Source of the DNA: a virus
Reading direction: 5' to 3' (one strand)
Virus record (IMG/VR): IMGVR_UViG_3300047558_000005
Coordinates: 1-20,166 of that record
DNA: 20,166 nt
Below, one piece after another: positions 5,435 through 16,372 of the stretch. The translations under genes and the position numbers were made by a program. Below the pieces are notes generated by a model. That model did not search any database and was not told the origin of the DNA. It saw only the letters and a list, made by a program, of their open reading frames with translations. Position 1 is the first letter of the stretch. Each line of letters starts with the position of its first letter.

Positions 5435-6600
5435 TGGTAGAAGAAATTAAAAGTGCTTTTGAAGGTATCAAGTCTGAATTAAACGGACAATTTGATGCAG
5501 CAAAAGCTGAAAACGTAGCTGCAGTAGACGCAGTAAAATCTGAATTAGAAGAATTAAAATCTCAAGTTGCTGTAGTTAAAGATGCTGCTGACAAACTTGA
5601 AGCAAAAAGCAATCGTAAAACAATGAACGAAAATCAAGCAAAAGGCTTCAATGCTACATTAGCTGAAGCAATTGAAAAGAATGCCGATGTATTAGGCAAA
5701 ATTGGTGCTGGTGAATTAAAGAGCCACGCATTTGTAATGGACACTAAGGCTGTAGGAAACATGACAGAAGCTTTAAGCTTAACTGGTGATATTCCTCGTC
5801 AATATGCTAACCAAGTTTATGGTTTACCTTCTCGTAAAGTACACGTTAGAAGTTTGTTACCAGTAGGTTCAATCTCTCAAGGTTTATTTACTTTCCCTCT
5901 TGAAACAGGTGGTGAAGGTGCTCCTGCTGCACAAGTACAAGGCTCTAGCAAAGCACAAGTTGATTTTGACATCACAATGACTAATGCTCCTGCACAAGTT
6001 ATTGCTGGTTACGTTAAAATCTCTCGTCAAATGTTAGATGACGTACCTGCTATGACTTCTTTCTTACAACAAAGATTGTTAGAGAAGTATTTAGTTGCTG
6101 AAGATGCTCAGTTATTAAGTGGTAACGGTACTGCTCCAAACTTACAAGGTTTAACTGGTGTTGCCTCTGCTTTCTCTGGTGCTGCTACAGTTGACGTTGA
6201 GCAATTAGTTCAATCTATTGCACAAGTTGAAGCTAGTAACTACACAGCTACTGGTATCTTGATTAACCCAACTGATTGGGCTAACATCATCAACACTAAA
6301 AACACTAATAGTGCTTACTCTTTACCAGGTTCTACAATCGTTACAACTAACGGTCAATTATCTATCGCTGGTATTCCTATCTATACTTCTACAGCTATTG
6401 CTGCTGACAAGTTCTTAGTAGGTGACTGGTCTATGGGTGCTCAAATCATGCAAAGAGATGGTATTTCTATTCGTTTCACAGAATTCGAAGGAAATGACTT
6501 TACTCAAAACATGATTACTGTAAGAGTTGAAGCTCGTATCGCATTCCCTATCTACTACGCTGGTGCGTTTGTGTACGGAGATTTTGGCAATGTTGCTTAG
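5434..6600 (+). CDS. Major capsid protein, HK97 fold
   Basis: Protein of 388 residues. Residues 1 to about 65 form a charged coiled coil (EEIKSAFEGIKSELNGQF and following heptads), equivalent to the HK97 delta domain that serves as built-in scaffold and is removed by the neighbouring protease. The rest carries typical HK97-fold segments: VHVRSLLPVGSISQGLFTFP, QVIAGYVKISRQMLDDVPAM and the C-terminal RVEARIAFPIYYAGAFVYGD. No separate scaffold gene is present, consistent with this layout. Codon choice is strongly biased to TTA, GCT, CAA and CGT, as expected of the most abundant virion protein. A terminator follows 30 bases after the stop, which would isolate its transcript. Confidence 0.95.
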   Translation: MVEEIKSAFEGIKSELNGQFDAAKAENVAAVDAVKSELEELKSQVAVVKDAADKLEAKSNRKTMNENQAKGFNATLAEAIEKNADVLGKIGAGELKSHAFVMDTKAVGNMTEALSLTGDIPRQYANQVYGLPSRKVHVRSLLPVGSISQGLFTFPLETGGEGAPAAQVQGSSKAQVDFDITMTNAPAQVIAGYVKISRQMLDDVPAMTSFLQQRLLEKYLVAEDAQLLSGNGTAPNLQGLTGVASAFSGAATVDVEQLVQSIAQVEASNYTATGILINPTDWANIINTKNTNSAYSLPGSTIVTTNGQLSIAGIPIYTSTAIAADKFLVGDWSMGAQIMQRDGISIRFTEFEGNDFTQNMITVRVEARIAFPIYYAGAFVYGDFGNVA

Positions 6601-6630
6601 GTAATATAACATAATTATTATACCTTTGTG

Positions 6631-6660
6631 GGGAGTAGTTCAAAAGCTACTCCCTTTTTT
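6631..6660 (+). terminator. Intrinsic terminator after the major capsid gene
   Basis: GGGAGTAG (6631-6638) pairs exactly with CTACTCCC (6647-6654); two more pairs, one a wobble, can close a 4-base CAAA loop. Six T's follow (6655-6660). It is the clearest rho-independent terminator in the window. The ATG of the homing endonuclease gene begins at the base right after the T-run, so read-through or a separate signal is needed to express that gene. Confidence 0.85.
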
Positions 6661-7371
6661 ATGATAGGTATATATAAAATTACAAGCCCAAGTGGCAAAA
6701 TTTACATTGGTCAAACTACCAATTTTACTAAGAGAAAGAATTACTACAAGAATGGTGCAAAGCCATATCAAGTAAGGATTCACAATTCATTACAGAAGTA
6801 TGGCTATGATGCACATACTATTGAATTTATTGAAAAATGTTTAGTAGAAAATCTAAACGAAAGAGAAAGATATTGGCAAGACTTTTATGATGTTATTGGA
6901 GAAAATGGTCTTAATTGCAGATTAACTGAAACTAAAGACAAATCTGGATTTATAAGCGAGGAATCTAAAATTAAAATGTCAGAAGCAAGAAAAAATAGAA
7001 TATTTGACCAAAATTGGATTGATAAACTAAGGAAATCTGCTATGGGTAAAAAACATAGCGAAGAAACTAAAAAAAGAATATCAGAATCAAATAAAGGCAG
7101 AAAGTTTAGTGCAGAACATATAGCTAAGTTGCCACAAAATCAAAAAGGGAAATTTAGACCAAAAGCATCTGAAGCTACTAAAATTAAGCAAAGTCTTAAT
7201 AGTGGAAAATCAAAGGTAGTTTATCAATATACTATTAATGGTATGTTTATAGACGAGTATAGAAATGTTGCTGAAGCTCAAAGGTGCTTAGGCATAAAAA
7301 ACATTAGTTCTGCTGCTTTGGGCAAAATACCATCATCTGGAGGCTTCAAATGGTCGTACACCAAATTTTGA
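6661..7371 (+). CDS. GIY-YIG homing endonuclease with NUMOD DNA-binding repeats
   Basis: Protein of 236 residues. A GIY-YIG nuclease domain occupies about 1-90: GIY at 3-5, YIG at 15-17, conserved arginine R25, the probable metal-binding glutamate E69 in LNERERYW, and N85. Two NUMOD3-like segments follow (SEESKIKMSEARK near 100 and SEETKKRISESNKGR near 135), then a NUMOD1-like segment from about 186 (VYQYTINGMFIDEYRNVAEA). This is the I-TevI/I-BmoI modular plan: nicking domain plus a beads-like DNA-binding arm. Such genes spread by cutting alleles that lack them. It is a free-standing mobile gene between intact neighbours. ATG 6661 is chosen because it begins the nuclease domain exactly; a GTG at 6628 would run through the terminator. 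No ribosome-binding site is visible. Confidence 0.9.
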   Translation: MIGIYKITSPSGKIYIGQTTNFTKRKNYYKNGAKPYQVRIHNSLQKYGYDAHTIEFIEKCLVENLNERERYWQDFYDVIGENGLNCRLTETKDKSGFISEESKIKMSEARKNRIFDQNWIDKLRKSAMGKKHSEETKKRISESNKGRKFSAEHIAKLPQNQKGKFRPKASEATKIKQSLNSGKSKVVYQYTINGMFIDEYRNVAEAQRCLGIKNISSAALGKIPSSGGFKWSYTKF

Positions 7372-7372
7372 C

Positions 7373-7380
7373 TATTTTTG
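7373..7380 (+). promoter_or_regulatory. Promoter-like TAnnTTTG element before the connector gene
   Basis: TATTTTTG lies one base after the endonuclease stop codon and 15 bases before the next ATG. The following bases GTAAAAATATA... closely match those after the portal element. No good -33 TTG is seen at the expected spacing, which weakens the call. It would restart transcription of neck and tail genes downstream of the capsid terminator. Confidence 0.42.
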
Positions 7381-7395
7381 TAAAAATATATTAGA

Positions 7396-7941
7396 ATGCA
7401 AATTGTAAGAGATATAGCGGTTTTGTCAGATACTATAGCAGAGCCAATAACACTTGAGGAAGCTAAAAACTATCTAAGAGTAGACTACCCTGAAGACGAT
7501 GCCTTAATTGAAGCTTTAATCACTTCAGCAAGAGTTAGGTTGGAGCAATATGCAGGTGTGGCTATGACTGAAAGAACATTACAAGTTGTAGCTTATATGA
7601 CTGAGTTTATAGAATTGCCTTATATGCCAATGGGGGTTTTGATGTCAGTAGAATATTGGAATAATATTTCATGGATTACTTTAGAAGAAGGAGATTATAA
7701 TACATTGGGTATTAACACAATGAAAGTGTATGCAGTTGCATATGGAGAAGGAGAATATAGATTTACTTATAGTTGTGGATATTGTGATGCTACTCCATCA
7801 ATGAGAACAGCTGTGTTTAAAATGTTAGCTGACCTTTACGAATACAGAGAATCAAGCGTTGAGTCAAGTAAGCCAAGTCCAAACTTAACTACGGCTTACG
7901 AATTAATGAAGCCTTATAAAAGAATAAACTATATCTTATAA
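7396..7941 (+). CDS. Head-tail connector protein, gp6-like
   Basis: Protein of 181 residues. The N-terminal ITLEEAKNYLRVDYPEDDALIEALITSARVRLEQYAG (given here only as positions 18-54, key residues EEAK-LRVD and ARVRLEQ) is the signature of the Phage_connect_1 / HK97 gp6-like family, a ring that docks under the portal and extends the channel. A central beta-rich portion and a final helix (AVFKMLADLYEYRES) complete the expected fold. It is the first gene of the neck set; its stop overlaps the next start by one base (TAATG). Confidence 0.88.
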   Translation: MQIVRDIAVLSDTIAEPITLEEAKNYLRVDYPEDDALIEALITSARVRLEQYAGVAMTERTLQVVAYMTEFIELPYMPMGVLMSVEYWNNISWITLEEGDYNTLGINTMKVYAVAYGEGEYRFTYSCGYCDATPSMRTAVFKMLADLYEYRESSVESSKPSPNLTTAYELMKPYKRINYIL

Positions 7942-8261
7942 TGATAGAGCAATTACGCAACAGAATCACTTTTAAGAGCCTTACAGGCGTTTCTGACGGT
8001 GCTGGTGGGTTTGTTAATACTGCAACTGCATATTATACTTGCTGGGCTGAAATAGTACGTCAAAATCAAAATAAGGATAATATAGCAATGAAAGATAATA
8101 TTGATGATAATATTACTTTTAGAATTAGATACACTACATCAAAAACTTTTGATAACAAACTTATCATAGAGTTTAAGAATAAGAAATACCTTATCAACTC
8201 AGTAATCAATGAAGGAGACATCAATAAGTACTTCTTGATTGGTTGTGCAACATTGAAATAA
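7941..8261 (+). CDS. Head-tail adaptor / head closure protein
   Basis: Protein of 106 residues, of SPP1 gp16 / Phage_H_T_join type. It starts IEQLRNRITFKSLTGVSDGA, followed by a GGFVNTATAYYTCWAEI segment and an FRIRYTTSKTFDNKLIIEF beta region, the usual small beta-barrel pattern of head-completion proteins (rings that seal the portal after packaging and carry the tail). One-base overlaps on both sides (7941 and 8261) indicate translational coupling within the neck cluster. Confidence 0.85.
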   Translation: MIEQLRNRITFKSLTGVSDGAGGFVNTATAYYTCWAEIVRQNQNKDNIAMKDNIDDNITFRIRYTTSKTFDNKLIIEFKNKKYLINSVINEGDINKYFLIGCATLK

Positions 8262-8716
8262 TGGCTACATTTAATGTACAAGTTCAAGGACTTAAAGAAC
8301 TTAGAAGTAAATTTCAAAAAGCTCCACAAAGTGTTGAAAATCAAGTAAAAAAAATTATTGACGAATCTGTTATTGATATGCAAAACAGAGCAAAACGTCA
8401 TGTACCTGTAAAGACTGGAGCTTTAAAATCTAGCATTACACATAGGCCATTTAATTATAAAACAGGTGCTTTGTTTATGGCTGGTAATCAAACTACTGTA
8501 AAATATGCTCCTTATGTAGAATTTGGTACTGGTGCAAGATTCCAAATACCTGCTTATCCAAATGTAAATTTAGATGACCTTGAAGCTTATGCATTTACAT
8601 TTAAAAGACCAAATACCAAAAAACAAGTAAATTTACCACATAGGCCATTTATGTTCTTAGCTTATTACGAAGTTTATAGTAATATGATTAAGAGAATTAA
8701 AGGAATAAAGATATAA
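8261..8716 (+). CDS. HK97 gp10-like neck / tail-completion protein
   Basis: Protein of 151 residues from ATG 8261, which overlaps the preceding stop by one base; an upstream TTG (8243) is possible but less likely. The family motif is clear: a helical N-terminus, then AKRHVPVKTGALKSSI (about 52-67), then KYAPYVEFGTGAR (about 88-100) and the late HRPFMFLAYYE. HK97 gp10 family proteins sit in the neck or tail terminator region. Genes in this order (connector, adaptor, gp10, completion protein, tube) are standard for siphoviruses. Confidence 0.9.
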   Translation: MATFNVQVQGLKELRSKFQKAPQSVENQVKKIIDESVIDMQNRAKRHVPVKTGALKSSITHRPFNYKTGALFMAGNQTTVKYAPYVEFGTGARFQIPAYPNVNLDDLEAYAFTFKRPNTKKQVNLPHRPFMFLAYYEVYSNMIKRIKGIKI

Positions 8717-8740
8717 ATATATTTCACTAAATTTGTATAA

Positions 8741-9166
8741 ATGAAAGACTGCGGATACGCTATAAGAAAAGCTTACATTGATAAGTTAACTGCGGCTTCC
8801 TATTCTTTAGGAGTTTATGATACCATAGCTCCTGATAGCATAGAACCTCCGTTCCTTATTATAAGCAGTCAGACATCGGCAGAGAATAGCGACAAGCAAA
8901 ACTATAATTTTGACGTCACTATTCAGTTTGACATAATTTATAAGACTTCTAAGACTGGTGAAGTAGGACAGAAATCAGTAGACGATTGGTCTAATGAGCT
9001 TTTAGGTATTATTGGCGTTTATCCAATAGACTATCCAAATGCTGGTCCTTATTTTAAAATTGTCACAAGAAAGGTTGGCTCAAATCAAGCAATGTTTGAT
9101 TATATCGACCAGGCTTATATTTTTAGAAGAGTTATGGTATTTGAACATTTCGTAAATCAATTATAA
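8741..9166 (+). CDS. Tail completion / tail terminator protein (DUF3168-like)
   Basis: Protein of 141 residues. It has the alpha/beta pattern of the gpU/DUF3168 group: an N-terminal helix (AIRKAYIDKLTAA), a YDTIAPDSIEPPFLIISSQT strand region, FDVTIQFDIIYKTS, and a closing YIFRRVMVFEHFV strand. The position directly before the tube gene supports a role capping the tail tube where it meets the neck. A TAAATTTG at 8728-8735 precedes the start by only five bases; this is too close for a normal promoter, and the gene is probably read from upstream. Confidence 0.72.
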   Translation: MKDCGYAIRKAYIDKLTAASYSLGVYDTIAPDSIEPPFLIISSQTSAENSDKQNYNFDVTIQFDIIYKTSKTGEVGQKSVDDWSNELLGIIGVYPIDYPNAGPYFKIVTRKVGSNQAMFDYIDQAYIFRRVMVFEHFVNQL

Positions 9167-9186
9167 AAAAGATAAAATAAAATAAA

Positions 9187-9624
9187 ATGGCAACAACAGG
9201 CGTATTTAACGGAACCTCATTAGTTGTGATGGTTGGAAGTGAGGTAGTAGCACATGCTACATCATGTTCTTTAAGCTTTTCAGTAGACTTACCTGAAACT
9301 ACAGATAAGCAAAGTGGTGGATGGGTAGAACATTTAGGTGGTGCAAAGTCTTGGACTTTGACTACAGATGGTTTAGCTACAGTTGACCCTGCTGCTACAG
9401 CAAATTACTATACTACAGGTGAATTAATGTCTGCTATAGCAAATAGAACTGCTGTAACTGTTTGGTTTACAACTGTAAGTGGTACAACTAAAGTAACAGG
9501 TGATTTGTCTTGGACTGGTTCTGCATTTGTAGAAAGCATGGATATTACTGCTGACATGGAGTCTCCAGTTACTTATTCTGCTACATTCACAGGAACTGGT
9601 GCTTTGACTCAAGCTACTAACTAA
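9187..9624 (+). CDS. Major tail tube protein
   Basis: Protein of 145 residues, TP901-1-like tail tube family. It begins FNGTSLVVMVGSEVVAHATS, continues with the DLPETTDKQSGGWVEH loop and KSWTLTTDGLATVD, and ends with VESMDITADMESPVTYSATF and FTGTG, all diagnostic of this tube fold. It forms stacked hexamers around the tape measure. The leader before the ATG is almost pure A/T with repeated AAATAA units, fitting high expression without a Shine-Dalgarno sequence. A diverged copy of this domain occurs in the gene at 13938-15116. Confidence 0.92.
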   Translation: MATTGVFNGTSLVVMVGSEVVAHATSCSLSFSVDLPETTDKQSGGWVEHLGGAKSWTLTTDGLATVDPAATANYYTTGELMSAIANRTAVTVWFTTVSGTTKVTGDLSWTGSAFVESMDITADMESPVTYSATFTGTGALTQATN

Positions 9625-9645
9625 TAACCAAAAAATAACCAAAAC
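9623..9645 (+). promoter_or_regulatory. AACCAAAA-type A-rich translation leader
   Basis: The gap before the tail chaperone gene carries AATAACCAAAAA (9623-9634) followed by a second ATAACCAAAA. The same 12 bases occur before terL at 1209-1220. With no Shine-Dalgarno motif, such A-rich leaders are the normal initiation context in Bacteroidota; exact recurrence suggests a selected leader. Confidence 0.35.
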
Positions 9646-10011
9646 ATGAGAGGACACTATGAATTAACTCTTTCCGATGGAAAGAAAATACCAATGCGTT
9701 TTTGTACTTGGAGTCTTAAAAGATTCTGTCAATTACAAGGCATTGGACCAGCTGAAATTGGTGAATCATTAAGCGGTTCTGATACTCTTGATGCAATCAC
9801 TAATTTATTAAGAGCAGCAGCGGAATATCCTTTATACAAAGAAGGTATTACGCCAAACTTTACTGATTTGGATGTATGTGATTGGATTGACGACATAGGA
9901 GGTATGTCAAGTGTAAAGTTTAATCAAATGATTGCTGTTTTAAATGAAAGCATGAATAGTGGATTAGAGCAACCTACGAAATCTAAGAAAGATAGAGTAA
10001 AAAAAAATTAG
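9646..10011 (+). CDS. Tail assembly chaperone, short form (gpG-like)
   Basis: Protein of 121 residues. It begins with a compact beta segment (HYELTLSDGKKIPMRFCTWS), then helices including LKRFCQLQGIGPAEIGESL and DAITNLLRAAAEYPLYKEG, typical of phage tail assembly chaperones that coat the tape measure before tube polymerisation. The last codons (GTA AAA AAA AAT TAG) contain a run of nine A's where a -1 frameshift can yield the longer GT-like product. Its position between tube and tape measure genes is the standard place for the G/GT pair. Confidence 0.85.
   Translation: MRGHYELTLSDGKKIPMRFCTWSLKRFCQLQGIGPAEIGESLSGSDTLDAITNLLRAAAEYPLYKEGITPNFTDLDVCDWIDDIGGMSSVKFNQMIAVLNESMNSGLEQPTKSKKDRVKKN
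9999..10005 (+). promoter_or_regulatory. Programmed -1 ribosomal frameshift slippery heptamer A_AAA_AAA
   Basis: A_AAA_AAA (9999-10005) lies in a run of nine A's six bases before the stop (TAG, 10009-10011) of the short chaperone. Tandem slippage by -1 leads directly into the frame of 10005-10325. In that -1 frame the nearest upstream stop is TAG at 9993-9995, so the two frames overlap only at 9996-10011 and the heptamer falls inside. This is the lambda gpG/gpGT arrangement. Confidence 0.85.
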
Positions 10012-10325
10012 AGTGGATTGATATTGAAAGATATACAATGGGGGAGTGCCAAGTGCTTCCCCATTTGTTTTGGGAGATGACGATGGCAGAGTTAGATTTT
10101 TTATGGTATGGATATAGGCATAAAGAAGAGCAAGAGTGGGTTAGATTAAGATGGCAAACTACTATATTAGTTAATTTAGTAGCACCTAAAAACAAAAAAA
10201 TAAAGCCAAAAGACCTTCTTGAGCTTGATTGCGATAATCGTAACTTTGTAAAGCAAAAGGTAATGAATCAAGATGAATTAAATGAAGTCTTGAAAAAATA
10301 TGAAAACTCTAAACCAATAGTATAA
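10005..10325 (+). CDS. Tail assembly chaperone, -1 frameshift extension (T part of gpGT-like)
   Basis: This frame adds about 106 residues to the first 120 of the short form, giving a fusion of roughly 226. The bases between the slip site and the first ATG (10038) translate as KLEWIDIERYTM, which looks like continuous coding sequence, and no ribosome-binding signal precedes that ATG; both favour translation by frameshift. An independent 95-residue product from 10038 is the alternative. The body (ELDFLWYGYRHKEEQEWVRL, then a basic Lys-rich stretch) resembles T domains that bind tail tube subunits and bring them to the tape measure. It overlaps the tape measure start by one base. Confidence 0.82.
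   Translation, partial: KLEWIDIERYTMGECQVLPHLFWEMTMAELDFLWYGYRHKEEQEWVRLRWQTTILVNLVAPKNKKIKPKDLLELDCDNRNFVKQKVMNQDELNEVLKKYENSKPIV
10037..10065 (+). repeat. Stem-loop downstream of the frameshift site
   Basis: AATGGGGGAG-type left arm (about 10037-10046) pairs with CTTCCCCATT (10056-10065): ten pairs including one G-U, with a 9-base loop. It lies about 31 bases after the slippery heptamer, farther than the usual 5-9 bases, so a direct stimulator role is uncertain; part of a larger fold is possible. It is one of few GC-rich hairpins in this AT-rich window. Confidence 0.5.
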
Positions 10326-12001
10326 TGGCTGACGAACAAATTAAGATTAGGATACAAGCTGATGCGGAACAATTTAAAATGGTATCAGCTGCTGTAGAAA
10401 GAGCATTAGCTGGTATAGGTAAAGAAGCTGATATAACTGCTGGAAAGATTAGAGGTGCTGGTAATGCAGTTAAATCTGCTAATCAACAATGGACAAGCTT
10501 AGCTTTAGTTATTCAAGATTTGCCATATGGTTTTAGAGGTATCCAAAACAACTTACCTGCATTAGCAAGTGGTGTAGCAAATTTAGCTGGTCCAGCTTAT
10601 TTAGCATTTTCTGCATTGGTTGCCGCTGTAACAGCATATGATATGGGTATTTTTGGTGCTAAAGAAAAAACAGATGATTTTAATAAAAGTTTAGCTGAAA
10701 CAAATAAAGAATTAAAAGGAGCAGTTAATTATATGAATGCTGACATAGCTTCATTAAATAGTTTATTAACTGTAACGACTAATCTTAATTACTCAGAAAG
10801 AGAAAGAAAACAAGCATTAAGTGATATTAAGGACATTATTGGTAAAGTAAATAAAGTTGAAGCTGAAAAAATAAAAAATGATGGTACTGCATATTGGGCC
10901 GTTGTTAAATATACAGAGGCTTTAAAACAGCAACAAATTGTTGAACTTACTGGTAAAAAAATTGCCGAGTTACAGATTGGCATAATGGAGAAAAGGGATA
11001 AACTTGACATTGCTAGAAGAAAAACGCAAAGAGGTGGACCAAGTCAATGGTTACAAGCTTTTTTAGGATACCCAGATTTACAAACAGCTGAAGAAGATGT
11101 AATAGGTGCTGAGTCATTACTAAGGAAACTTGAAAATATGAATGCATCTGCATTAGTAGCAGCAGGTAAAAATAAATTTTTAAATCCTGATAAGCAAGGT
11201 CCAACCGATAACAGTATGTATAAAAACCTTAAGTCAGAAACTGGCTTATGGTTAGCTGAATATAAAAAAAGACAAGAATTTGCAAAGAAAAATGCAAAAA
11301 TAATTGCTCAAACAAAACCTCAAGATAAAGCAAAGGCAGAAGACAAAAGGTTAAGTGATATAAAGCAATTTGGTGAATATGTTATGTCAGGTGATTTTGG
11401 AAAGTCATTACAAGGAGCAACATCTTCTTTTTATGAATCTTTAAATCCTGGTTTAATAGATGCCGAAAATGAAGCTTTAGTTACTAGAAATGAATTAATT
11501 AAGCAACAAGCCGATGCTTATTTACAAATGGCTGATACTATTTCAAATTTTGCCACTAATGCCTTTATGGGATTATGGGCTGCAATGGAGCAAGGCATGA
11601 GTATTGGTGATGCATTGGCTAATATGTTTATGGATTTAGTCAAACAAATTGCTGCTGCAGCATTTAAGGCTTTGATATTTTCTATAGTACTTAGTTTATT
11701 GCCTGGAACAGGAACACTAGGTACTGCCGCTGCTGCATCAAAAAAAGCGGCAAATGGATTTGGTGGATTGTTTAAATATTTTATGGGGTTTGCTAATGGT
11801 GGTATTATATCTGGACCTACTATGGGCTTAATGGGAGAATATCCAGGTGCTCAAAATAATCCTGAAGTTGTTGCTCCATTGGATAAATTAAAAGATTTAA
11901 TGGCTGGTTCAGGAGGCGGAGGTTCATTTGTACTTAGAGGTCAAGATTTAGTTTTAGCTATGAATAGAAGCGAATCATCATTAAAACTTAGAAGAGGATA
12001 A
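10325..12001 (+). CDS. Tail tape measure protein
   Basis: Protein of 558 residues. It begins with the common tape-measure opening IKIRIQADAEQFKM, followed by small-residue-rich helices, a hydrophobic stretch at about 77-106 with the QDLPYGFRGIQNNLP segment just before it, a long charged helical region (about 115-370), a second hydrophobic stretch (about 435-465) and a Gly-rich FANGGIISGPTMGLMGE end typical of these proteins. Using the family rule of about 1.5 angstroms per residue, the tail would be near 80-85 nm. Hydrophobic segments fit a role in genome delivery across the host envelope. No muramidase or peptidase domain is recognisable. Starts and stops overlap neighbours by one base. Confidence 0.9.
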   Translation: MADEQIKIRIQADAEQFKMVSAAVERALAGIGKEADITAGKIRGAGNAVKSANQQWTSLALVIQDLPYGFRGIQNNLPALASGVANLAGPAYLAFSALVAAVTAYDMGIFGAKEKTDDFNKSLAETNKELKGAVNYMNADIASLNSLLTVTTNLNYSERERKQALSDIKDIIGKVNKVEAEKIKNDGTAYWAVVKYTEALKQQQIVELTGKKIAELQIGIMEKRDKLDIARRKTQRGGPSQWLQAFLGYPDLQTAEEDVIGAESLLRKLENMNASALVAAGKNKFLNPDKQGPTDNSMYKNLKSETGLWLAEYKKRQEFAKKNAKIIAQTKPQDKAKAEDKRLSDIKQFGEYVMSGDFGKSLQGATSSFYESLNPGLIDAENEALVTRNELIKQQADAYLQMADTISNFATNAFMGLWAAMEQGMSIGDALANMFMDLVKQIAAAAFKALIFSIVLSLLPGTGTLGTAAAASKKAANGFGGLFKYFMGFANGGIISGPTMGLMGEYPGAQNNPEVVAPLDKLKDLMAGSGGGGSFVLRGQDLVLAMNRSESSLKLRRG

Positions 12002-13935
12002 TGGCATACGGACAAAAATACTCAGTATTGTTTGCTACAAGAGCAGATAAAAACGTTGAGCTTAAAATGTGGCAAGATGGATATTCTGGCTCTATTATTA
12101 GCCTACAAGGTATTGATGTTAATTTACAGTATATACCAAATTCAGATGACCCTTACGAACCAATATATGCATCGCAATTAGGTGTCACAATAGATTTTAC
12201 TGATAATTTATCAGATATTATAAACTTTACTAATATAGATGATAGATATACATATGTTGAAATGTATATAAATTCAGTTATTGAATGGGTTGGATTTGTT
12301 ATTAATGATAATGTTCAAGTATCTTATTCAACAGGTAGAAAGTTAGTTTCATTTAATGCTACTGATGGATTAGGAATGTTAAAAGATATTGTATTTGTTC
12401 CTAAAGCTGGTAATACTGGTGTTAATGATTCGACTAGCTTATTTAATATACTTGCTATATGTTTTAATGGAATTGGCTTTAAAAACAACAGAAACATTAT
12501 TACATTGTGCTCTTATTTTGCCAATGGTATGAGTAACAGGTCTGTAAATTCATGGAGAGACCCGTTTGTACAAACTTATATAAATTATAGAACATTTTTA
12601 GAAAATGAATATACTTATATAAATTGCTTAGATATTATTTCTAATATTGCTAAATCATTTGGATGTAGAATATTTCAAGCTAAAGGTAAATGGTGGGTAG
12701 TATCTATAAATGAATTTGCAAGTATAAATTCATATTATACTGAATATACATCAACAGGTACAGTAGTTAATAATGGTGATGGTAATTTAATTAACACGTC
12801 ATCTATTGTTCAACCATATGTCACAAATACTTCAGGTTTGTATTTTATTGATAATAGCCAATTAAAAATTATAAAAAAGGGATTTTATAAAATTATAGCA
12901 GAAGGAAATGTAGAAGTGTCTGAAAATTATATACCTAATGGCAATTTAATAGATAATAATGGAACAGAAGCTACTTTTTGGACTAGAAGTTCAACTGGTG
13001 ACGGTACTTGTTTATTACAGCAAAATGCTATTACAGATTCTTATTATTTTGAGCTTACTGCTCCTTCTGGAGGACCAGCTGGTACTGCAGGAATAACATT
13101 AGAATCTACTTCTAATGCTTATGTAACAGCAGGAGATTCATTACAATTAAACATATTAATTGGTGCAGCTACTGGAACCACCCCAATAGGTTTTATAGAT
13201 ATATCAATAAATACTGGAAGTATCATTTATTATTTAAACAATGATAAAAAATGGCAAACAACATCTACTTCATATACAGTATATAATCCAAAGACAACTG
13301 GTGCTGCAGAAGATTTTACTTTAGATTTAAAAACAGAGGCTTTTCCTGGAACTGGTCAGTTAAGTTTTACATATAGAATATCAGAAGGCATAGCTTTTGT
13401 TTCTTTGACTAATTTTGTTATGCAAATTAAATCTGGCATTGGTTCATATAATCTTACTGGAACATTATCAGAAAGCGAACAATATACGAAGAAGATTAGT
13501 TTACCTTATGGAAGTACTGGCAGTGATTCATATTATCCATCTGCAAAAGGAACTTTATTATTAAGCAATAATTCAGTTGCTGCAGGATGGTACAGGTATG
13601 GAATGGAACCTGTAGGAGAATTTTTCACTTTAGCAGAATTAATAGTTCAACAATATGTAAACACATTTGCATTAAATATAATTAATGTTGATTGTGATTT
13701 AAGTAGTTTTTATACAACTAATACTAACTTTAGAACATTAAACGCATCAAAACTTATTTTTGCAACAGATACGGACCCTGCATCAATAAATATTAGCAGC
13801 AAATCATATATGTTAGGTAATGCAACAATATCATATCCATCTAATAGTGCGAATGCTACATTGTTACAAATATCAAATACTGAGATAAGTTGCACAAGAG
13901 TAAATAAATATACACCTCAAACAAGTACATTTTAG
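12001..13935 (+). CDS. Distal tail / baseplate hub-like protein with a carbohydrate-binding-like domain
   Basis: Protein of 644 residues, directly after the tape measure, where distal tail and tail-associated proteins are encoded. The N-terminal part (about 1-300) shows the pattern IEWVGFVINDN...FNATDGLGMLKDI (key residues near 95-130), a segment recurrent in hub-like tail proteins of Bacteroidota phages, then an insert with CRIFQAKGKWWVVSINEF. From about 308 to 490 a beta-sandwich-like region beginning NYIPNGNLIDNNGTEATFW resembles carbohydrate-binding modules and may contact surface glycans. The C-terminus (about 490-644) is again beta-rich. No catalytic motif is seen. Family assignment is inferred from position and pattern, not a firm match. 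Confidence 0.65.
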   Translation: MAYGQKYSVLFATRADKNVELKMWQDGYSGSIISLQGIDVNLQYIPNSDDPYEPIYASQLGVTIDFTDNLSDIINFTNIDDRYTYVEMYINSVIEWVGFVINDNVQVSYSTGRKLVSFNATDGLGMLKDIVFVPKAGNTGVNDSTSLFNILAICFNGIGFKNNRNIITLCSYFANGMSNRSVNSWRDPFVQTYINYRTFLENEYTYINCLDIISNIAKSFGCRIFQAKGKWWVVSINEFASINSYYTEYTSTGTVVNNGDGNLINTSSIVQPYVTNTSGLYFIDNSQLKIIKKGFYKIIAEGNVEVSENYIPNGNLIDNNGTEATFWTRSSTGDGTCLLQQNAITDSYYFELTAPSGGPAGTAGITLESTSNAYVTAGDSLQLNILIGAATGTTPIGFIDISINTGSIIYYLNNDKKWQTTSTSYTVYNPKTTGAAEDFTLDLKTEAFPGTGQLSFTYRISEGIAFVSLTNFVMQIKSGIGSYNLTGTLSESEQYTKKISLPYGSTGSDSYYPSAKGTLLLSNNSVAAGWYRYGMEPVGEFFTLAELIVQQYVNTFALNIINVDCDLSSFYTTNTNFRTLNASKLIFATDTDPASINISSKSYMLGNATISYPSNSANATLLQISNTEISCTRVNKYTPQTSTF

Positions 13936-13937
13936 AT

Positions 13938-15116
13938 ATGGCATCAGTAATTAACGGAACTAATATAGTCTTATACGCAAAAAGAAGTAATGCAAAATAT
14001 TACCTTAATGGAAGTGTAAATAATGGCACTATTAGTGGTAATACATTTTATGAATTAGGCTCAAGTGAAAATACAGGCTCAAGTGCAGATTTTTCTAAAA
14101 ATACAGATGGTAGAATTACTGGATTTATTACTGATATTGGTTATCCAAGTTCTGTTACTCTTCCTGCTGGAACATGGACTTTTGTCAATTACCTTAGTAT
14201 TACAACAGACCTTACAGGTTCTCCAGGATTCTATTATAAAATATATAAATATAATGGTACTACATTAACCCTATTGGCTACATCATCAACTACAACTTTA
14301 ACATCAACTGCAAAGACTAAATATACTACAAGTATATCTATGTCAAGTGCTGTTTTAAGTGACACCGATAGAATAGCAATAGAGTTTTATTCTGTAAATT
14401 CTACAACAAGAACTACAACGTTATATACTCAAGGAGTTAATGATAGTTCTGTAGTAACAACATTTGATTATTATACTCCATTTGGAGCTTCTACAAACTG
14501 CTCTTTTGAAACTAGCGTAGAGCAAGTAGAAGTAACTAGCCAAACTTCAGCATGGTTCAGAGAATATAAGAATGATGTAATAACATGGTCTGTTAATTGT
14601 GATGGCTTTATTACTTTAAGTAATAATTACAACTATGCTTATTTATTACAATTAGTATTAGATAAGACGCCTATAACTATAAAATTTGCAATAGACAATG
14701 ACAATGGAGCTGGTAGTGATACTTTAGGTAATACTATACTTACAGGATTGGCTAACTTAACATCATTATCATTGTCAGGTCCAGTTGAAGGTGCTTCTAC
14801 ATATAGTGTATTATTGCAAGGAACTGGTGGATATTCTATCGATGGTATTTCAGTACAAACTCAAGGCATATCATTTAGCACTCAGATTGTTAAAATGCTA
14901 GATTATACGGCAACAGGCGGAGAAACTACAATAACATTTACTGATGCTATTGGATTTACTTGCTTTAGTGTAAGTAGAGGTGGAGTAGAAGTACAAACAA
15001 TATTAACGTCAGGAACTCCTACAGGAGACAATGTAATGTTTAATACTGCAAATGGGATATTAACTTTTGGAACAGCTTTAGGAACAGGAGAATTTGTTAG
15101 AGCATTATTTAAATAA
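13938..15116 (+). CDS. Tail protein with a tail-tube-like domain split by an inserted beta domain
   Basis: Protein of 392 residues. Its first residues (INGTNIVLYA) and residues about 183-297 (NCSFETSVEQVEVTSQTSAW, then VITWSVNCDGFITL, then ANLTSLSLSGPVEGAS and LLQGTG) align by eye with the tube protein at 9187-9624. Between them, about 15-182, sits a beta-rich module (VTLPAGTWTFVNYLSITTD, YYKIYKYNGTTLTLLATS, DRIAIEFYSVN) of a kind common in phage adsorption proteins. A short beta domain forms the C-terminus (about 300-392). It is probably a tail-tip or decoration protein that docks on tube-like rings. It starts two bases after the preceding stop. Confidence 0.6.
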   Translation: MASVINGTNIVLYAKRSNAKYYLNGSVNNGTISGNTFYELGSSENTGSSADFSKNTDGRITGFITDIGYPSSVTLPAGTWTFVNYLSITTDLTGSPGFYYKIYKYNGTTLTLLATSSTTTLTSTAKTKYTTSISMSSAVLSDTDRIAIEFYSVNSTTRTTTLYTQGVNDSSVVTTFDYYTPFGASTNCSFETSVEQVEVTSQTSAWFREYKNDVITWSVNCDGFITLSNNYNYAYLLQLVLDKTPITIKFAIDNDNGAGSDTLGNTILTGLANLTSLSLSGPVEGASTYSVLLQGTGGYSIDGISVQTQGISFSTQIVKMLDYTATGGETTITFTDAIGFTCFSVSRGGVEVQTILTSGTPTGDNVMFNTANGILTFGTALGTGEFVRALFK

Positions 15117-15118
15117 TT

Positions 15119-16372
15119 ATGAGTCAATTACAGATAGTAAATTCAGCCAAGTTCACTACCCTTGCAGGTTCAGGTAATGTAATTGCAGGTGGTGATACTA
15201 ATGGCACATTAACCAAAATAACTATAGGTAGTGGTTTAACGTTATCAGGTGGTGTACTTACTTCAAGCGGAAGTGGTACAGCCTTAACTCTAACAACTAC
15301 TGGGACAAGTGGAGCTGCTACTTATAATAGCGGTACAGGAGTATTAAACATACCTATATATTCTAGTGGTTCAGGTGCTGTAAGTTCAGTCTTTGGTCGT
15401 ACTGGAGCTGTAGTAGCTGTTAGCGGTGATTACAATACTGATTTAGTTACTGAAGGTTCTACTAATCTATATTTTACTAATGCTAGAGCAAGGGGTGTAT
15501 TAAGTGCAAATCCAGGTTCAGCATTAACTTACAATAGTTCTACTGGTAGGTTTACTTTAAACGCAGCAGATGGAGGTGTACCTGGTTATGTTACAACAAC
15601 TGATTATAACTATTGGGATAGTAAACAAGATTCAATAGGAACTGGTACAACTTCTCAATTTTTAAGAGGTGATTTAGTATGGGCTACTCCAGCACCAATA
15701 TCATTAAACGATTTAACAGATGTTGCTTATGTAGGAAGTCCTACAAATGGGCAAGTATTAACTTTTAGATTTGGAGATTGGAGAAACGAAACTCCTCCAT
15801 CTTATGTTTTAGCAAGTAGAACATTAACAATAAATGGAACATCTTATGACCTTTCTGCTGATAGGTCTTGGTCAGTTGGTACGGTAACATCTGTTACGGT
15901 GTCTGGACCATTATATACATCTGGGTCATCTACTGCCCCAGTAATTAACATTAATCAAGCGACAACAACTCAAAGTGGATATTTGTCTCAATATGATTAT
16001 AATGTTTTCAATAATAAGGCATCTACTGCTGACTTGGCAAATTATCTGCCATTAACTGGAGGAACTTTATCTGGAGTATTAACTGCTCCAGGCTTCTTTG
16101 AGTCATCAGATAAACGCCTTAAAAAGCAAATAGAGGCTAATTATGCCCCTAAAAGCATTCAGGATATACAAACATACCTTTACGAGAAAGACGGTAAAAT
16201 TGAGGCTGGATATTACGCACAAGAGGTGCAAGAAATTATGCCTTATGCGGTAGCTGAAGGTAAGGATGGCTTCTTGGCAGTAGCCTACAATCAAGTTTTA
16301 GCATCAAAGGTTCAATATTTAGAAAATGAATTAAAAGCGTTAAAAGATGAGTTGGGCAGGATTAGCAAGTAA
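15119..16372 (+). CDS. Tail fibre protein with C-terminal S74 intramolecular chaperone
   Basis: Protein of 417 residues. The N-terminal two-thirds is Gly/Ser/Thr-rich fibre repeat, including SSVFGRTGAVVAVSGDYNTD and EGSTNLYFTNARARGVLSA (about 88-130), modules also present in the fibre gene at 17250. The C-terminal 88 residues form a Peptidase_S74 domain: SDKRLKKQI with S330 and K335 as the probable Ser-Lys dyad, then AGYYAQEVQEIMPYAV, ending in a coiled coil (VQYLENELKALKDEL). In this family the domain trimerises the fibre, then cleaves itself off just before the serine. Its end overlaps the next gene by 26 bases. Confidence 0.85.
   Translation: MSQLQIVNSAKFTTLAGSGNVIAGGDTNGTLTKITIGSGLTLSGGVLTSSGSGTALTLTTTGTSGAATYNSGTGVLNIPIYSSGSGAVSSVFGRTGAVVAVSGDYNTDLVTEGSTNLYFTNARARGVLSANPGSALTYNSSTGRFTLNAADGGVPGYVTTTDYNYWDSKQDSIGTGTTSQFLRGDLVWATPAPISLNDLTDVAYVGSPTNGQVLTFRFGDWRNETPPSYVLASRTLTINGTSYDLSADRSWSVGTVTSVTVSGPLYTSGSSTAPVININQATTTQSGYLSQYDYNVFNNKASTADLANYLPLTGGTLSGVLTAPGFFESSDKRLKKQIEANYAPKSIQDIQTYLYEKDGKIEAGYYAQEVQEIMPYAVAEGKDGFLAVAYNQVLASKVQYLENELKALKDELGRISK

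Follow-up and report, generated by a model that had tools for sequence, protein, structure and literature searches.

A second tail-tube-like protein with an optional inserted jelly-roll module, a candidate adsorption ring in phages related to Flavobacterium and Cellulophaga phages

We analyzed a virus record of 20,166 bases, henceforth referred to as the window, that encodes terminase, portal, protease, capsid, connector and tail proteins. Downstream of its tube gene, the window carries a second tail-tube-like gene whose tube fold is split by a jelly-roll module, and this module has been repeatedly gained and lost or exchanged among related phages. We propose, with a probability of roughly 0.6, that the protein forms a tube-derived distal hexameric ring that would act as an adsorption platform with an optional surface-binding domain, in the role of an "evolved Dit". 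The capsid protein of the window is nearest to those of Flavobacterium phage 11b and Cellulophaga phage phi10:1 (34–35% identity). The tube gene (9187–9624) is followed by two small ORFs, the presumed tape-measure gene, a gene for a 644-aa protein, the second tube-like gene and the fibers. The coordinates that the first-pass annotation gave for the second tube-like gene were accurate and correspond to one ORF of 392 aa. The features are as follows.

9187..9624, plus strand: main tail tube protein, 145 aa (PF06199, 3.7e-11; phrog_1407, 4.4e-23)
10325..12001, plus strand: presumed tape-measure protein, 558 aa, assigned by position and length; its family matches are not convincing
12001..13935, plus strand: tail hub protein, gp27/Mu gp44/VgrG-like, 644 aa, assigned from its model and structural matches, with an internal CBM-like jelly-roll (residues ~307-478)
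13938..15116, plus strand: second tail-tube-like protein, 392 aa, with a split tube fold, an inserted jelly-roll and a C-terminal docking-like domain (ORF and translation, PF06199, phrog_1407, AlphaFold2 model)
13938..13985, plus strand: N-terminus and strand beta1 of the tube fold, residues 1-16, MASVINGTNIVLY... (alignments; kept in insert-free orthologs too)
13986..14468, plus strand: inserted jelly-roll module (INS), residues about 17-177, absent from close relatives (DNA comparison with the relative L012, empty and filled alleles, model)
14469..14837, plus strand: remainder of the tube fold, residues 178-300 (PF06199/phrog_1407 match; aligned jointly with residues 6-16 to the GTA tube, the monocin tube and lambda gpV)
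14529..14576, plus strand: presumed beta2-beta3 inter-ring loop, residues 198-213, EVTSQTSAWFREYKND (near-invariant columns in orthologs; low-pLDDT loop in the model; loop role per PMC8718954)
14889..15113, plus strand: C-terminal domain (CTD), residues 318-392, with a fold like CBA120 TSP4 XD3 and a Shigella phage B2 protein, kept in orthologs and absent from the relatives L025-L027
15119..16372, plus strand: tail fiber with a C-terminal Peptidase_S74 chaperone (PF13884)

Elsewhere in the window, a gene for a GIY-YIG endonuclease with NUMOD motifs lies at 6628–7371, between the capsid and connector genes. In L012, which lacks this gene, the DNA homology to the window ends at 6600 and restarts at 7363. 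By this comparison, window 6628–7371 is a free-standing homing endonuclease insertion.

We assessed the relationship of the second protein to the tube. Residues 185–297 match the tube protein in BLASTP at E = 1e-9 with 26% identity, and phrog_1407 ("major tail protein") matches across residues 175–330 at E = 3.6e-14. PF06199 reaches E = 7.2e-5 and 23.3 bits, 0.5 bit short of its curated cut-off of 23.8. Pfam and PHROGs return only tube families for the core and, by profile match and by its tube beta-sandwich fold, the core belongs to the tail-tube family PF06199/phrog_1407. A search for close relatives of the 392-aa protein in GenBank phages and bacterial genomes returned none, only distant major tail proteins. 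The first-pass annotation had described an in-order match of the N-terminus plus residues ~183–297 to the tube, and this homology holds. Because the shared N-terminal stretch (INGTNIVLY and FNGTSLVVM) is only ~13 residues long, its membership in the tube fold is decided by the orthologs and not from the window alone. Many orthologs are 229–239 aa long, start with MASVINGTNIVLY or a close variant and continue directly into the core, and the tube aligns over their whole first 145 residues. Since such insert-free orthologs (234 aa) align with the tube in one continuous piece (BLASTP E down to 3e-10), the N-terminal match is more than chance. Profile–profile comparison of the insert-free orthologs with the tube is significant (hhalign 98.3%, E = 1.8e-14), and they match the monocin tube in the PDB at E = 4.3e-6 across 3–141. 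Structure prediction also gave a tube-like fold, at low confidence in the tube part (pLDDT about 45–70): VIA-align of model residues ~5–320 matched the GTA tube (Z 9.9, 123 aa, 4.6 Å), the monocin tube (Z 8.8–9.0) and lambda gpV (Z 8.9). The shortness of the N-terminal stretch could be taken to mean that its match is chance and that a tube protein is merely fused behind an unrelated N-terminal domain. This is hardly credible, since the insert-free orthologs keep the 13 residues joined to the core with a tube alignment from end to end, the empty alleles contradict it, and the structural aligner matches residues between 6 and 303 to a single tube subunit.

Residues 198–213 are the most conserved stretch, with 15 of 16 columns invariant in the ortholog alignment, and coincide with the position that the inter-ring loop occupies in tubes. 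In known tubes, the beta2–beta3 loop carries ring stacking, and the beta1–beta2 loop lies on the exterior, in contact with the Ig domain in lambda and with the sheath in T6SS (PMC8718954). Given a near-invariant stretch at this place, ring stacking through residues 198–213 is likely, and we regard the loop as suggestive of hexameric stacked rings.

The module splits the tube fold after its first strand, in the beta1–beta2 loop, where ~160 residues replace a loop of about ten. An insertion into an early loop of the tube fold had been proposed, and natural empty alleles prove it. The ~170 residues of unrelated beta-rich sequence reported between the tube parts are indeed an unrelated beta module, of a smaller size (~160 residues, about 17–177). 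Its profile has no similarity to that of the tube (hhalign 0.2%). AlphaFold2 models residues 17–177 as a confident beta-sandwich jelly-roll (pLDDT mostly above 80–90). Among solved structures, the C-terminal jelly-rolls of CocE/X-prolyl-peptidase-type hydrolases come closest (Z 15.9, 148 aa, 2.5 Å), with CBM15 (Z 9.8) and CBM35 (Z 8.6) both below. A search with 16 INS members found no match beyond chance in Pfam or PHROGs, and the best E-value in the PDB was 0.87. Jelly-roll folds need not be sugar binders; the modeled fold is compatible with INS binding a host surface glycan or envelope ligand, which it probably does.

INS homologs also sit in fiber proteins at many positions (54, 138, 226, 367, 490, 674 and others), and in many relatives the gene at the position of the window fiber (15119–16372) carries an INS domain. 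This distribution suggests that INS is probably an independently folding unit and is widespread. The ring and fiber copies form two clades, separated by a starred split at 100. Most first matches of INS were in the downstream fiber, and we considered a shuttling of INS between ring and fiber, which the clade split rejects for recent times. Mutual exclusion of the ring and fiber copies was also rejected, as many phages have both.

We compared filled and empty alleles. L012 is 96.5% identical in DNA to the window over 7363–13,969 (6.6 kb, ending at codon 11), then lacks INS, and its homology restarts at 14,477 with 74% identity. L139 (filled) and L120 (empty) allow a cleaner comparison: they share 94% identity up to codon 11 and 86% past the slot, with ~500 nt in place of ~29 nt. 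In a set of 161 distinct proteins, the stretch that precedes the core has either 23–28 residues (90 proteins) or 176–181 residues (71 proteins), with no other class. Two further seeds retrieved 113 more proteins, possibly overlapping the first 161, in the same two classes, and no other module was found in the slot among these high-scoring relatives. In about 270 orthologs (both sets, with possible overlap), the slot is thus empty or holds this one INS family. On the best tree of 101 cores, with INS left out, the filled/empty state changes at least 10 times, of which 3 changes are forced by starred branches; this tree is short and in part unresolved. The histories of INS and core conflict: L246 and L227 have 98% identity in INS and 55% in the core, and L147 and L191 have 97% in the core and 36% in INS. 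These conflicts, together with the repeated state changes, indicate that INS moves as a cassette. They also bear on the possibility that INS is a structural or stabilizing domain, a ring-to-ring or ring-to-fiber clamp without host-surface binding. Domain2 of YSD1 provides a precedent, as an inserted beta-sandwich that clamps the neighboring subunit (PMC8718954), and a sugar-binding signature was not found by sequence in Pfam or PHROGs. We consider a clamp unlikely because presence or absence between near-identical phages and core-independent exchange fit an optional external function better, and because INS relatives occupy many positions in fibers.

The description of 13938–15116 as a two-part protein was incomplete, as it missed a third domain: the tube fold stops around residue 300, and a separate CTD occupies residues 318–392. 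Its predicted fold is a jelly-roll, as in the XD2/XD3 (T4 gp10-like) docking domains, with structural matches to the Shigella phage B2 protein 9d84_B (Z 9.5, 66 aa, 1.7 Å) and to XD3 of CBA120 TSP4, 7rej (Z 8.8, 65 aa, 1.6 Å). A CTD profile search of the PDB found no chain at E ≤ 1, and Pfam and PHROGs gave no convincing match. XD2/XD3 of CBA120 and their T4 counterparts, including those of gp10, are trimer-docking domains that bind other fiber or spike trimers (PMC8825819). By analogy, the CTD may dock the downstream fiber, although the CBA120 domains are parts of a trimeric tailspike whereas the CTD is the C-terminus of a tube-family protein and has no sequence match to them. The ring proteins of L025–L027 have no CTD, and docking through it therefore cannot be universal. 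In L163 (4001–4770), the CTD is replaced by a threonine-rich linker and a different sequence; the C-terminus is therefore exchangeable too. In L217 (4950–5858 and 5914–7107), the reading frame for the ring protein is disrupted close to its end (302 aa, odd C-terminus), by a frameshift or a sequencing error.

The structure model of the 644-aa protein just upstream has high confidence (pLDDT 87.9) and matches the baseplate hubs of Milano (Z 18.4) and Mu (Z 18.2), with PVC and VgrG also among its structural matches (Z 17–18 for the four). Hub residues ~307–478 form an internal jelly-roll of their own that matches K2-2 tailspike, CBM16 and CBM4 types at Z 12.6–14.8 (about 13–15). Kinship of the ring module with this CBM-like domain was dropped after a profile comparison of the two gave no match.

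The linkage of the second tube protein to its neighbors was evaluated across 121 phages. We had expected the tube core to track the hub; this was rejected, because the two are almost uncorrelated (Spearman 0.04), and 261 pairs have a hub identity <40% yet a core identity ≥90%. The core correlates with the CTD at 0.72, and the correlations with the fiber N-terminus are weak (0.25 for the core and 0.31 for the CTD). The uncoupling from the hub and the discordant pairs indicate that recombination often occurs at the start of gene 13938–15116 and that the protein behaves like a member of the adsorption block. We regard the CTD–fiber correlation as suggestive of binding of the CTD to another tail fiber or spike protein.

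In the phylogeny, the tube and the paralog form separate starred clades, and Firmicutes major tail proteins are placed next to them; long branches come together there and the branching order is unsafe. In L033 and L040, the paralog occurs alongside a main tube that shares only 27% identity with that of the window; this main tube is of a different, phi10:1-like lineage, and the second tube protein is unchanged in kind. Judged from the separate clades and from the retention of the paralog with a foreign main tube, the split is old, with duplication or acquisition both possible routes. The earlier suggestion that this phage's own tube gene was duplicated is not supported by the same evidence, nor is a recent in-situ duplication. 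L308 and L309 (1938–4242) have tandem tube paralogs, one of 141 aa without insert or CTD and then one of 625 aa with a long threonine-rich C-terminal extension.

Tube homology would also be expected of a minor tube subunit mixed into the tail shaft, where INS would decorate the tube along its length like the gpV Ig domains or 936 TpeX, and tube-borne sugar-binding extensions exist (PMC6669499). We judge this quite improbable, as the gene lies after the hub and adjoins the fiber, the core is linked to the CTD and fiber, and the protein is kept with a main tube of another lineage in L033 and L040, which disfavors co-polymerization.

We compared the proposed adsorption ring to known systems. Evolved Dits, in lactococcal 936/skunaviruses and other phages of Gram-positive hosts, are tube-fold ring proteins of the tail tip that occur in a short and a long form; the long one carries an internal insert (168 aa in some) that contains one or more carbohydrate-binding modules, and the forms differ between related phages (PMC10688798, PMC6669499). 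The protein described here is likewise a tube-fold protein and candidate ring protein with an internal insert and with short and long forms among related phages, the module being present in some close relatives and absent in others. It differs in that its core belongs to the gpV/PF06199 tube family without a Dit-family match, and the proteins that were scanned yielded no Dit-family gene. Because the Dit and tube folds are related, a distant Dit tie is conceivable. Dit genes usually precede the hub, and the evolved-Dit site is between the tape measure and the hub/Tal, whereas the gene here follows the hub-like 12001–13935. Further differences are the separate C-terminal docking-like domain, an INS family without sequence match to known CBMs and with putative ligand binding, and a setting in phages related to Flavobacterium/Cellulophaga phages. 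By analogy, the working principle would be that of an evolved Dit, and membership among evolved Dits is unsupported because the core matches the tube family and the gene is located downstream of the hub. The arrangement had been called unusual, which is half right, as inserted carbohydrate-binding modules in a tail-tip ring were already known from evolved Dits.

Tube folds with added outward beta domains are also found in lambda gpV, YSD1_22 (domain2) and SPP1/936 TpeX, but these are main tube proteins and not a second paralog. The site of addition differs as well, lying between alpha1 and beta4 in YSD1 and at the C-terminus in gpV and TpeX, in contrast to the beta1–beta2 loop here. Cellulophaga phage phi10:1 has two PF06199-annotated genes, gp084 and gp089, the second of which immediately follows gp088, a relative of the window hub. 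However, both INS and this CTD are missing from gp089, which scores better against the profile of the main tube (E = 3e-8) than against that of the paralog (E = 0.012); its orthology with the second tube protein is therefore unsupported.

In the mechanism that we propose, the tube-family protein would assemble into a hexameric ring that caps the distal end of a long non-contractile tail, stacks on the tube or hub through the conserved beta2–beta3 loop, and would serve as an adsorption platform like the Dit of Gram-positive phages. The CTD would dock the downstream fiber, and the beta1–beta2 loop, outward-facing in known tubes, would be the optional slot. The jelly-roll in the slot would bind a surface glycan or other envelope ligand as a weak, multivalent added attachment, with six copies around the distal ring giving extra weak contacts, comparable to those of evolved Dits with exopolysaccharide (PMC10688798). 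INS and the empty allele would be swapped by recombination at the conserved start of the gene and within the downstream core, and the platform would travel with the fiber and not with the structural hub. A terminal ring with outward domains is plausible, being consistent with the position after the hub, the near-invariant loop, the docking-like CTD and linkage to the fiber over the hub. For siphophages related to Flavobacterium/Cellulophaga phages as a group, we put forward tentatively, at slightly below even odds, that a second gpV-type tube protein supplies a Dit-like ring, that its beta1–beta2 loop is a plug-in site for one module family, and that filled and empty alleles are swapped by recombination at the conserved start of the gene, which also moves the ring together with the fiber and independently of the hub.

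The apparent gain, loss and swapping of the module among these phages resembles the way in which dairy phages exchange sugar-binding inserts in a different tail-tip protein. Most known cases of binding modules inserted into tail-tip rings come from phages of Gram-positive hosts. If our reading is true, this would be an independent case in a different ring protein, in phages that are common in metagenomes and have few cultured relatives. Natural pairs that differ almost only by INS make the effect of an optional tail-ring domain on adsorption directly testable, and the uncoupling from the hub marks a site at which adsorption parts recombine in these phages.
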